DNA from: Candidatus Thermoflexus tengchongensis
GTDB lineage: Bacteria > Chloroflexota > Anaerolineae > Thermoflexales > Thermoflexaceae
Assembly (NCBI GenBank): GCA_016842085.1
Contig: JAEVEX010000007.1
Span: 1 to 52,861 of the forward strand
Length of the DNA stretch: 52,861 nucleotides
Direction: 5' to 3'
The position numbers and the translations under genes were made by a program. Positions 14,322-30,381 of this stretch are shown here, piece by piece; within the stretch, counting starts at the first letter, position 1, and the number at the start of each line of letters is the position of its first letter. The notes under the pieces were generated by a model. It saw only the letters and a program-made list of their open reading frames with translations, had not been told where the DNA came from and did not search any database.

Positions 14322-14348
14322 TCCCCATGGCCCTGCCGGATCCGATGG

Positions 14349-14383
14349 CGAAAAGGGCGGCCGCAAAGCGGCCGCCCTTTTCG
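14349..14383. terminator. Bidirectional rho-independent terminator
   Basis: Perfect 16-bp arms (14349-14364, 14368-14383) with an AAA loop. An A run at the left edge and a T run at the right edge make it work in both directions. It separates doxX (plus) from the trkA gene (minus). Confidence 0.93.
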
Positions 14384-14403
14384 TAAGCCGGACAGATCCA
14401 GGC

Positions 14404-25415: not shown

Positions 25416-25446
25416 TTATTTCACCTCATAGGGTGAAACAAATGAC
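25411..25446. repeat. IS200/IS605-type end hairpin
   Basis: Imperfect palindrome: arms 25411-25425 and 25432-25446 match at 14 of 15 bases around a 6-nt loop (TCATAG). It encodes the last codons and stop of tnpB and also the first ATG of the RsmC-like gene. Subterminal hairpins like this are the transposase recognition sites of IS200/IS605 elements. The opposite end near 26.8 kb shows no clear matching hairpin to the eye. Confidence 0.7.
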
Positions 25447-26678
25447 CGGCCACTTCCTGCTTCAACGACCCGTGGCTCGTAGACCGACCCGAAGGCCGTT
25501 CCGCCGCCAGAGGGATCTCCACAGGCGTCACTTCCCGGGGAACTCCCGGTAGGGCCTTTGAGGGCAGCCAACCCATAAAGCCGCAGGTTGAGCGCCGCGT
25601 TCCAGTCCCGATCCATCTCCAGCCCGCAGGCCGCGCAACGGAAAACCCGCTGGGACAGCGAAAGCCGCGGACCCACCCATCCACACTGCGAACACCTGCG
25701 GGTGGACGGGAAATCCCGCGGCGCCACAATGAGCCGCGCGCCATACCAGCGGCCCTTGTATTCCAGCATCCGGCGGAACATCCCCCAGCCCACATCCATT
25801 ACGCTTCTGGCCAGTTTCCCACGAGCCAGGCCCTTCACATGGAGATCCTCCACCACGATCGTCGACTTGGTTTTCGCCAGCGCCGTGGTGACCTGGTGAA
25901 GGAAGTCCCGCCGGATGTTCCGAATCCGCCGATGCAGCCGGGCCAGCCGAAGGGAGGCCTTGCGATGGTTCCTCGATCCCTTTTGCTTGCGGGAGAGATG
26001 TCGGGAACGGCGCCGCAATAAGCGCAGCCCCCGGGCCAGCGGCTTCGGGGCTTCGATGCGCGTTCCATCGGACAGCACCAGGAAGGACATCAGCCCCAGA
26101 TCCACGCCCACCACGTCGTCGTCCTGGGGAACACGGGGGATGGGATCGGGCCGCTCCACTTCACAGGTGAGGCTCACAAACCAGCGATCAGCCTCCCGGG
26201 AGATGGTGGCCGAGAGGATGCGGGCCTTCTTTTCCTGGAGGAGCCGGAGGAGCCTGTCCGTCCGCTCCTTGGTGCGCACCTTGCCGATGCGGGGGAGCTG
26301 CACGTGACGGGGAGTCACCCGGATGGAGCCCGTCAGGCGGGCCTTGTTATCGTCCAGGCTCTTCTTGCGCTTGAACCGGGGCCTTCCGGCCCGGCCCTGC
26401 CGCCAGTTGCGAAAAGCCCGCTCCAGATCCCGGAAGGCCTCCTGAGGGGCGCACTTGGACACCTCTACCCACCAGGGAGCGTTCTCTCGCTTCCAGACGT
26501 TCCACGCCTTGTGGAGCTGGGCGGCGGAGGGAAGGGGCAGGCCTTGCTCCAGCGCCTCCAGGCAGCGGGACAGACCCCAATTGTAGGCGAAGCGGGCCGC
26601 CCCCACGTGCTTGGCCAGGGCCACCCGTTGCGTCCCGTTGGGATCCAGCTCGAAGCGAAACGCCTGCATCTCCCGCAT
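25416..26678 (-). CDS. tnpB: RNA-guided nuclease TnpB of an IS605/IS1341-type element
   Basis: A 420-residue protein with an intact RuvC triad: Asp193 in VVGVDLGLMSF, Glu277 in TIVVEDLHVKGL and Asp358 in EMDRDWNAALNL. The zinc finger CSQCGWVGPRLSLSQRVFRCAACG uses Cys329, Cys332, Cys348 and Cys351. The start MREMQAFRFELDP fits the family, and ATG 26678 has GGAG upstream. TnpB cuts DNA guided by an RNA made from the element's own 3' end. No tnpA is adjacent, so this is a tnpB-only copy that moves only with help in trans. The 3' end overlaps the end hairpin. The gene is full-length, so it may be active. Confidence 0.95.
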   Translation of the reverse strand: MREMQAFRFELDPNGTQRVALAKHVGAARFAYNWGLSRCLEALEQGLPLPSAAQLHKAWNVWKRENAPWWVEVSKCAPQEAFRDLERAFRNWRQGRAGRPRFKRKKSLDDNKARLTGSIRVTPRHVQLPRIGKVRTKERTDRLLRLLQEKKARILSATISREADRWFVSLTCEVERPDPIPRVPQDDDVVGVDLGLMSFLVLSDGTRIEAPKPLARGLRLLRRRSRHLSRKQKGSRNHRKASLRLARLHRRIRNIRRDFLHQVTTALAKTKSTIVVEDLHVKGLARGKLARSVMDVGWGMFRRMLEYKGRWYGARLIVAPRDFPSTRRCSQCGWVGPRLSLSQRVFRCAACGLEMDRDWNAALNLRLYGLAALKGPTGSSPGSDACGDPSGGGTAFGSVYEPRVVEAGSGRSFVSPYEVK

Positions 26679-26765
26679 CCCATCGTCTCCAGCACCCGCC
26701 TGCATGCGGTGAGGTGGCGGATCCCCTGCTGGCAAGCCCAGTCAGAGCGCTTTGTGGTCGAATGG

Positions 26766-26890: not shown

Positions 26891-26898
26891 CGCGCAGG

Positions 26899-27281
26899 TG
26901 GAGGCGGCGGGAATCGAACCCGCGTCCGGAAGATTCGATCGCCGGTGCCTACAGGCTTATCCGGTTCTTCCCTCTCGCCGGCCGGTCCTCCAACCGGCAA
27001 GGTCTCCGGCCAGCCAGCCCCTGGGATCTTAGGCGGCCTTCCGGGGCGCCCGGCCGCCGCACGCCGACTTTGTCACACCCGATCCGGCCCCGTCGGCGAT
27101 GGGTCCGGTCGAGCGGGTCCCCTCATCGGGGGACCGTCCCCTCACGCTGGCTTAGGCGGCCAGCGGGAGAGCCGCGTAATCGCGGTTGGCACTTGTTGTT
27201 TGCCCGGGTTGTTCACGGGGTCCGAGCGGCCCCGACCTGCCACCGACGATCTGCCTCCCCCGTCGAGCCCTCTTCGCCCCC
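26899..27281 (-). ncRNA. ssrA: Transfer-messenger RNA (tmRNA)
   Basis: The minus-strand 3' end has the tRNA-like T arm with GGTTCGATTCCCGCC. The 5' end at 27281 starts GGGGGCG and pairs with CGCCTCC of the 3' end (26900-26906), discriminator A at 26899, giving 383 nt. The resume codon is GCC (27188-27190), and the tag reads ANRDYAALPLAA followed by TAA at 27152-27154. The tag is 12 residues and ends in LAA, the usual protease signal. tmRNA rescues stalled ribosomes and tags the unfinished protein for degradation. CCA is only partly encoded. Confidence 0.95.
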
Positions 27282-28994: not shown

Positions 28995-29023
28995 TTGACA
29001 AGGGCGCCCGGACCCGCTAAATT
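28995..29023 (+). promoter_or_regulatory. tRNA-Gly promoter
   Basis: -35 TTGACA (28995-29000), 17-nt spacer, -10 TAAATT (29018-29023). Transcription would start within about 10 nt of the tRNA 5' end. Confidence 0.6.
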
Positions 29024-29037
29024 GTTATATAGAGCGC

Positions 29038-29113
29038 GCGGGCGTAGCTCAGATGGTAGAGCGTTGGCTTCCCAAGCCAAAGGCCGCGGGTTCGAGTCCC
29101 GTCGCCCGCTCCA
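29038..29113 (+). tRNA. tRNA-Gly (CCC anticodon)
   Basis: A 76-nt cloverleaf with 7-bp acceptor GCGGGCG/CGCCCGC, discriminator T and encoded CCA, D arm AGCTCAGATGGTAGAGC, anticodon stem-loop TTGGCTTCCCAAGCCAA with anticodon CCC, and T arm GGTTCGAGTCC. The U discriminator fits glycine tRNA. Confidence 0.97.
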
Positions 29114-29115
29114 TT

Positions 29116-29149
29116 GGGGGCAGATCAGCGATCTGCCCCCTTTGTTTTG
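29116..29149 (+). terminator. Terminator after tRNA-Gly
   Basis: Perfect 11-bp arms (29116-29126, 29130-29140), loop AGC, followed by TTTGTTTTG. It begins 2 nt after the encoded CCA. Confidence 0.9.
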
Positions 29150-29187: not shown

Positions 29188-29309
29188 GGAGAAAGCGCTC
29201 GCACCGGGAGAGCGAACAGGCTTTCTCCTCACCCCTCCTGGCCACGGAGGAAACGGGGGTTTGGGGTGGGGCGAGCCACCGATGGTGGCTCGTTCCGCCT
29301 CAAACCCTC
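29188..29309 (+). promoter_or_regulatory. Structured 5' leader of rnc with a long RNA hairpin
   Basis: Two hairpins lie between the tRNA terminator and rnc. Hairpin 1 has an outer stem GGAGAAAG/CTTTCTCC (29188-29195, 29221-29228) and an inner stem CGCTC/GAGCG. Hairpin 2 has arms 29255-29280 and 29284-29309 that pair over all 26 positions, counting four G-U pairs, around a 3-nt GAT loop. Hairpin 2 is long enough to be a duplex substrate for RNase III, the product of the next gene. This suggests self-regulation of rnc mRNA, as known in E. coli. Confidence 0.75.
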
Positions 29310-29409
29310 AGGGAAGGATCAACTGGGCCACGAAGGAGGGGGATCTCAGAAGAATGTCCTTCATGCGCTTTATCCCGGTGGTTCATCCTTCCCCTGAGGG
29401 GAGTGTGGA

Positions 29410-30231
29410 ATGGGAAACTGGTGGATTCGTATTGGGCGTCTCTGGGGGCATCTTCAGGAGAACCAGAAGGAACGTACGCCTCGCGGGTCGCCCCTCCCTT
29501 CGCCCCAGGCTTCCCCTTCTGAAGAGGAGCCTCTTCTGCTCCTGGAGAAACGCCTGGGCTGGTCCTTCCAGAACCGGGCCCTTCTGATAGAGGCCCTGAC
29601 CCACCGGTCTTATGTCAATGAGCACCCCGATGAAGGGATTCGCGACAACGAGCGCCTGGAATTCCTGGGAGACGCGGTCCTTCAACTGGTGGTCAGTGCG
29701 GATCTGTTTCGTCGGTTTCCGGACTGGGCGGAGGGGCGCCTGACGGAATTGCGCACCGTCCTGATCCGCGGGGAGCGGCTGGCCGCCTGGGCGGAGGATC
29801 TGGAGCTGGGCCGCTGGCTTCGCCTGGGGAAAGGCGAAGCCGAAAGCGCCCGGACCCGCCCCTCCGTTCTGGCGGACGCCTTTGAGGCGCTCCTGGGCGC
29901 CCTGTATCTGGATGGGGGGCTGCCGGCAGTGGAACGCCTGATGGACCGGCTGCTCCCGGAGGCCATCGATCAGGCCCTGAGGGATCTGGAGTGGCACGAT
30001 CCGAAAGGACGCCTGCAACAATGGAGTCAGGCGGTCCGGGGGAAGACCCCCGTCTATCGGGTGGTGGCCGTGGAAGGCCCTCCCCACGCGGCCCGTTTCA
30101 CGGTCCAGGTGCTGATCGGCGATGAGGTCGTGGGGGAGGGTCAGGGAGCCAGCAAGCGGGAAGCCACCCGGGAGGCAGCCCGAAACGCCCTGGTCCGCCT
30201 GGGGATCGAGAACGGCGGCAAGGGGGAGTAG
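29410..30231 (+). CDS. rnc: Ribonuclease III
   Basis: A 273-residue double-strand RNA nuclease that processes rRNA and mRNA. The signature NERLEFLGDAVL (residues 80-91) holds the catalytic Glu/Asp residues, with Asp88, and LADAFEALLGALYLD supplies the second acidic set. The C-terminal double-strand-RNA-binding domain (about 195-268) has DPKGRLQQWSQ and GASKREATREAARNALVRL. The first 40 residues are an unusual polar extension. The start ATG 29410 has GAGGGGAG upstream. Its leader contains a probable RNase III substrate. Confidence 0.96.
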   Translation: MGNWWIRIGRLWGHLQENQKERTPRGSPLPSPQASPSEEEPLLLLEKRLGWSFQNRALLIEALTHRSYVNEHPDEGIRDNERLEFLGDAVLQLVVSADLFRRFPDWAEGRLTELRTVLIRGERLAAWAEDLELGRWLRLGKGEAESARTRPSVLADAFEALLGALYLDGGLPAVERLMDRLLPEAIDQALRDLEWHDPKGRLQQWSQAVRGKTPVYRVVAVEGPPHAARFTVQVLIGDEVVGEGQGASKREATREAARNALVRLGIENGGKGE

Positions 30232-30235
30232 GAGG

Positions 30236-30342
30236 GGCTTTCGCCCCGACAGGCTTTCGCCCCGACCGGATGTCGCCGCTGAAGCGGCTCCTACTCCTAC
30301 AGACTCCTACAGACCGGATGTCGCCGCTGAAGCGGCTCCTAC
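30236..30342. repeat. REP-like direct repeats between rnc and prfA
   Basis: A 31-nt unit occurs at 30264-30294 and 30312-30342; each carries the hairpin GCCGCTGAAGCGGC. Ahead of it, GGCTTTCGCCCCGAC occurs twice (30236-30250, 30252-30266). These resemble short palindromic intergenic repeats spread through many genomes. Confidence 0.75.
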
Positions 30343-30381
30343 AGGCGGCACATTGCCATGTTTGCCATGTGGGGAATTCCT

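Follow-up and report, generated by a model that had tools for sequence, protein, structure and literature searches.

Positions 29255-29401 of the window (the whole 52,861-nt stretch of Candidatus Thermoflexus tengchongensis DNA analysed here) appear to form a cis-acting RNA leader of rnc, the gene for RNase III, in one clade of the hot-spring genus Thermoflexus (Chloroflexota); the best explanation for this leader, which we hold with moderate confidence, is feedback by RNase III on its own mRNA. The leader comprises a long hairpin, P1, and a second helix, P2, over the Shine-Dalgarno (SD) region, and since nucleotides 29305-29309 (CCCTC) belong to both, the full P1 and the full P2 are mutually exclusive. 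P2 was missed by an earlier, sequence-only reading of this DNA, and it is the stronger sign of regulation. We are highly confident that P1 and P2 are a selected RNA structure. The features of the locus are as follows.

29038-29113, + strand: tRNA-Gly, anticodon CCC, directly upstream of rnc (ARAGORN; Rfam tRNA, 74 bits).
29116-29140, + strand: intrinsic-terminator-like stem followed by a T-rich tail; separates tRNA-Gly from the rnc leader.
29188-29228, + strand: weaker hairpin proposed by the sequence-only reading, seen in the fold and with no counterpart in relatives; left out of the element.
29255-29309, + strand: P1, a 26-bp stem with no interruption and a 3-nt loop; candidate RNase III site.
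29305-29319, + strand: 5' strand of P2, CCCTCAGGGAAGGAT, anti-Shine-Dalgarno; its first 5 nt also close P1.
29385-29400, + strand: 3' strand of P2, ATCCTTCCCCTGAGGG, with one bulged C; covers most of the Shine-Dalgarno.
29396-29401, + strand: probable Shine-Dalgarno GAGGGG, 8 nt before the start codon (from sequence and position relative to the conserved ATG).
29410-30231, + strand: rnc, RNase III of 273 aa, catalytic domain plus dsRBD (Pfam, PDB relatives, orthologues).

The product of rnc matches the RNase III (4e-32) and dsRBD (2e-15) families of Pfam, its PDB relatives are RNase III structures such as 1o0w and 7r97, and orthologues are present in 8 of 8 same-genus genomes. P1 has the geometry that the sequence-only reading had described, with arms at 29255-29280 and 29284-29309 that pair over 26 consecutive positions around a 3-nt loop (GAU); the G-U pairs number five, where four had been counted. 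Because rnc starts at 29410, P1 ends 100 nt before the ATG, a distance that agrees with the earlier estimate. P1 is the longest hairpin of the window when both strands of the 52.9 kb are considered, and 20 first-order resampled windows gave maximum hairpin lengths of 12-15 pairs vs. 26 for P1. The 260-nt rnc leader, whose folding had been suggested as a check, has a folding energy of -130.4 kcal/mol, whereas shuffles average -103.5 (z = -4.9) and 0 of 200 are as stable. RNase III generally cuts duplexes longer than two helical turns well, and P1, as an uninterrupted duplex of this length, is a likely substrate; we consider it probable that RNase III cuts P1. A role for P1 as an intrinsic terminator was rejected for want of a T-run after it, the next sequence being AGGGAAGG. 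In Rfam, the P1 leader has no match to a known RNA family, riboswitch or T-box; near rnc a gathering threshold is reached by the tRNA only, and the weak matches there are to unrelated models, of animal microRNA and other RNAs. The second hairpin of the sequence-only reading, at 29188-29228, is present in the window as a weaker, interrupted fold but is not conserved among relatives. The 60 nt upstream of P1 have a mean identity of 40% among them, and only ~15 nt lie between the terminator T-run and P1 in G008; on these grounds it was rejected as a conserved second hairpin.

The transcription context bears on whether P1 is part of the rnc message. A sigma-70-like promoter of tRNA-Gly (TTGACA-17-TAAATT) lies at 28995-29023 and scores 17.8 in the genomes where it is readable, while with the same matrix, an approximate E. 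coli one, the interval from terminator to rnc contains no promoter-like site that beats shuffles in any of the six genomes with P1 (16-96% of shuffles are as good). The gene order tRNA-Gly, terminator, rnc is common to nine Thermoflexus genomes, the G001 contig starting just inside the promoter. Most simply, transcription from the tRNA-Gly promoter probably continues through the terminator at 29116-29140 into rnc, which would place P1 in the rnc mRNA. P1 might then serve mainly as a processing site at which the precursor of tRNA-Gly is parted from the rnc mRNA, and autoregulation would come second or not occur at all; the tRNA-Gly and terminator directly upstream in nine genomes and the lack of an apparent separate rnc promoter would allow this. 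E. coli metY-nusA-infB is a precedent: RNase III cutting between a tRNA and the downstream mRNA is the subject given in the title of reference 40 in PMC3997798. As far as that title goes, the E. coli operon resembles the Thermoflexus locus in its succession of tRNA gene, RNase III-type stem and mRNA, and differs from it in that the downstream gene here is rnc itself and an intrinsic terminator stands between the tRNA and the candidate stem. That terminator, which belongs to tRNA-Gly, argues against processing as the main function of P1, as do the species that keep the same gene order without P1 and the conserved SD helix, which processing would leave unexplained; we judge this reading quite improbable.

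P1 is found at the same site before rnc in six of nine Thermoflexus species, that of the window among them (G000, G001, G002, G005, G007 and G008; clade A), and no P1 lies upstream of rnc in the other three (G003, G004 and G006; clade B). The clades were defined by protein identity together with shared features, and RNase III is 78-81% identical to that of the window in clade B and 88-93% within clade A. Since P1 is present in six species and absent in three close ones, gain or loss of such a regulatory loop could be compared directly; that rnc of clade B occupies this position without the P1 element counts against RNase III feedback. At 21 loci from other genera of the class, no stem upstream of rnc reaches the clade-A score, a result on which P1 as a class-wide feature of rnc leaders was rejected, and a class-wide search with the P1 model gave no match of clade-A strength elsewhere, with weaker matches outside the genus. 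The sequence-only reading had seen here an independent case in a distant phylum. The phylum is indeed thermophilic and far from E. coli, but the case is restricted to one clade of one genus, and its stem is repeat-like. P1 was not found in the leader of pnp, the other classic leader target of RNase III; P1-type hairpins do lie shortly downstream of pnp in G002 (L093:1525-1594), G007 (L104:590-659) and G008 (L148).

Comparison with relatives, also suggested beforehand as a check and as a possible refutation, did not refute the sequence-only reading, which is partly supported: the pairing of P1 is preserved through compensatory changes in the six species. In their alignment 96.2% of P1 cells are standard pairs, and 17 of the 26 pairs are variable, five with two-sided changes. 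Covariation reaches 0.331 vs. 0.262 ± 0.021 in shuffled alignments, with 0 of 500 shuffles as high, counts that are not probabilities because the rows of the alignment are related. Sliding one arm as a control lowers the pairing to 38-63%, and RNAalifold recovers the P1 stem from the six-species alignment. Four of the six P1 5' arms carry four G-runs, and the conserved feature could in principle be a G-quadruplex in this G-rich arm instead of the duplex; however, the pairing persists in the window and in G007, where the four-run motif has been lost, and changes in the C-rich arm track those in the G-rich arm. We rejected the G-quadruplex, which seems hardly credible to us, because the pairing outlives the G-runs.

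P2 is formed by 15 of 15 pairs in 6 of 6 clade-A species, with a single bulge in two of them. The 5' strand averages 94% identity among the six and the 3' strand 83% (a value lowered by the two bulges and by the choice of ends), against 44% for the stretch that separates them, whose length ranges from 43 to 78 nt. The uninterrupted complementarity of P2 exceeds all 2000 shuffles in four of the six species; in the two bulged ones it is matched in 87 and 43 of 2000 shuffles and so is not exceptional. The sole two-sided change in P2 is a compensatory C-G to U-A replacement in G001; it falls in the segment shared with P1, where the same base forms a G-U pair. That P2 has only this one two-sided change also counts against the feedback reading.

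The competition between the two helices was examined by folding. With the full leader at 70 °C, three species have a predicted SD:CCTC pairing of 0.01, 0.08 and 0.15, a fourth has 0.62, and the remaining two have 0.85-0.95; upon a simulated cut, in which the transcript is removed up to the middle of the P1 3' arm as an assumed cut site, it becomes 0.93-0.99 in all six. By these models a cut should close the ribosome site in every one of the six species, but only about half of them are predicted to have it open beforehand. The predicted switch is not uniform, which counts against the feedback reading: two of the six species are predicted to pair the SD with P1 intact, and in the 37 °C folds most of the SD pairing is present whether P1 is cut or uncut. 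The two species with a mostly paired SD, and the near-invariance of a P2 that covers the SD, are what one would expect if P2 alone regulated, as a heat-sensitive or ribosome-dependent SD lock, with P1 as a folding neighbour or a stabiliser of the mRNA 5' end. On the other hand, P1 has compensatory changes of its own and its last five nucleotides are common to P2, which suggests a joint function; regulation by P2 alone appears very improbable.

We propose the following scheme for RNase III feedback. With P1 intact, its base would tend to keep CCCTC engaged. More RNase III would lead to more cutting of P1 and loss of its 5' arm, whereupon CCCTC could complete P2 and the ribosome site would close; the cut rnc mRNA would moreover be open to decay, giving negative feedback, and the same cutting would free tRNA-Gly from the rnc message. 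Whether cutting of P1 regulates rnc is, in our assessment, evenly balanced, and the specific SD-locking step is put forward tentatively, as one that is rather less likely than not to operate. P1, P2, their conservation and their competition are seen in sequence and folding; transcription through P1, cleavage and an effect on translation are our inferences.

P1 also resembles a family of hairpins dispersed in the same genomes. A covariance model of P1 and its tail has many non-rnc matches in each of the six clade-A genomes, of up to 57 bits, and no matches in the three clade-B genomes (12 candidates scored per genome); because the model was built from P1, part of the likeness between P1 and the repeat is selected. 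The family copies, matched by the model and by BLAST, are near-perfect hairpins of 40-60 nt that end in TTTGGGG...CCCCAAA; many have a C(GAA)G apex of the type GCCGCCGAAGGCGGC. P1 belongs with them as a long GC-rich stem with ends of this type (GGGTTTGGGG...CCTCAAACCC), and its own apex varies between species (CGATG, CGCCG, TGAAG and others). Loose matches to the apex pattern number 385 in G005, 85 in G002, 65 in G001, 33 in G000, 31 in G008 and 12 in G007; since both strands and overlaps are counted, true copies come to roughly half of these or fewer, from a few to nearly 200 per clade-A genome. The counts are far above a reversed control in G005, G002 and G001 and about three- to twelvefold above it in G000, G007 and G008, and those of clade B are near the reversed control and not above background. 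Of the 42 copies inspected, simple codon-usage gene calls place 40 in intergenic sequence, more often at convergent or tandem sites than at divergent ones. A tail similar to that of P1, CCC..GGGAAGGATC, is seen on some copies, but an unbiased count of 35 hairpins found it on 3 of 70 flanks vs. ~1 expected, a result that does not support a constant tail in the repeat unit. One copy, L071, consists of hairpins at one intergenic site in five clade-A genomes, with arms that are strongly diverged and still paired; its alignment stops at the hairpin point in clade B.

The genome-wide matches in clade A alone, the excess over the reversed control, the common ends, the intergenic placement and the orthologous L071 copy are all consistent with P1 being an old copy of a dispersed, REP/MITE-like repeat that lies upstream of rnc by chance and stays paired for the palindrome's own reasons, with no regulatory consequence, cut or uncut. 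Site retention is not unique to rnc, since the L071 copy is retained too, and retention alone is no proof of rnc control, because P1 is repeat-like and this unrelated intergenic copy is also kept in five clade-A genomes. Three observations weigh against a chance copy. Over the same five genomes, mean identity is 76% for P1 vs. 56% for the L071 hairpin. P1 is accompanied in 6 of 6 species by P2 with the SD region, whereas a P2-like partner for the tail is missing from most other copies examined (L071, L081 and L088 do have one, and at least those of L081 and L088 overlap other family hairpins). Finally, the P1 element at rnc is single-copy when judged by its exact tail. We consider a chance copy possible but doubtful, and continue to prefer RNase III feedback. 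A connection of the family to RAYT (Y1 transposase, PF01797) was not found in these draft genomes: PF01797 is absent from G005, the genome richest in copies, and is present in G000, G002, G008 and the clade-B genomes G004 and G006.

Several further observations concern these and other repeats. Example copies of the family, at L078:1508-1552, L088:1497-1541, L130 and L131, are long near-perfect hairpins (TTTGGGGCTGGGGCGCCGCCGAAGGCGGCGCCCCAGCCCCAAAA); family hairpins often have another hairpin beside them, CCCCTCCCC-GGCC...GGCC-GGGGAGGGG. The family is abundant in G005, and its arms vary from copy to copy with the pairing maintained. A different short repeat of ~85 bases, at L071:443-527 (G000:C13), is repeated dozens of times across G000, G008, G003 and G004, in some cases with a regular spacing near 147-160 nt. 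Immediately 3' of rnc, at 30225-30345 of the window, lies a REP-like palindromic cluster with two units of GACCGGATGTCGCCGCTGAAGCGGCTCCTAC; this type has 63 matches in the genome of the window, is found also in G003, G004 and G006 and twice in G005, and has none in G001, G002, G007 and G008, a distribution that differs from that of the P1-type hairpins. Elsewhere in the window, a 439-aa ORF on the minus strand (25416-26735) looks by eye like a TnpB-type transposon protein, with CxxC motifs near its end, and adjoins a tmRNA at 26897-27281; a 17-pair hairpin at 14348-14384 (GCGAAAAGGGCGGCCGC-AAA-GCGGCCGCCCTTTTCGT) is nearly identical on both strands and is possibly a bidirectional terminator.

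Its likeness to a repeat dispersed in these genomes suggests that P1 may have originated by insertion of such a repeat. A more specific version, which we think unlikely as a whole, would be that the rnc gene of one clade recruited a copy of the dispersed hairpin and linked it to the SD helix by way of the five nucleotides that the two have in common, so that an RNase III cut leads to a refolding that turns translation off. If so, other transcribed copies would compete with the leader for RNase III, and the state of the leader would reflect how much enzyme there is relative to duplex RNA.

In E. coli, the product of rnc cuts the 5' UTR of its own mRNA, which leads to rapid decay, a case of leader autoregulation (PMC5371410). 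The Thermoflexus leader resembles E. coli rncO in having a stable stem 5' of rnc and, as proposed here, in a negative feedback that acts by cutting the 5' UTR; it differs in consisting of one uninterrupted 26-bp stem and a further conserved helix that covers the ribosome site, with a proposed effect on translation. The kinship would be a likeness of working and not of descent, as the leader has no Rfam match to a described rnc leader family. RNase III also controls its own message in S. coelicolor (absB/rnc) and S. aureus, as we propose for Thermoflexus, but the cut is made within the coding region of S. aureus rnc and in a polycistronic transcript in S. coelicolor, and neither involves a leader stem coupled to SD pairing. 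In S. aureus cspA, an RNase III cut in the 5' UTR alters translation; cleavage activates there, whereas it is predicted to repress in Thermoflexus. The Correia elements of Neisseria (CREE/NEMIS) are, like the Thermoflexus hairpins, repeats dispersed in the genome; RNase III binds or cuts their stem once it is transcribed, and they can sit 5' of genes, as P1 does (PMC2649163). The likeness claimed here is one of description: the Thermoflexus copies are hairpins of ~40-60 nt, without known ends or transposition, and the proposed target is RNase III's own gene. By these analogies, the Thermoflexus leader would work like that of E. coli rnc, with the gene order of metY-nusA-infB and an origin that may be Correia-like. 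If cleavage is shown, the leader would extend RNase III leader autoregulation to a thermophilic phylum far from E. coli, with an off-switch that consists of locking the ribosome site after the cut vs. rapid decay in E. coli, and it would illustrate how a hairpin repeat of mobile appearance can come to control the enzyme by which hairpins of this kind are cut.
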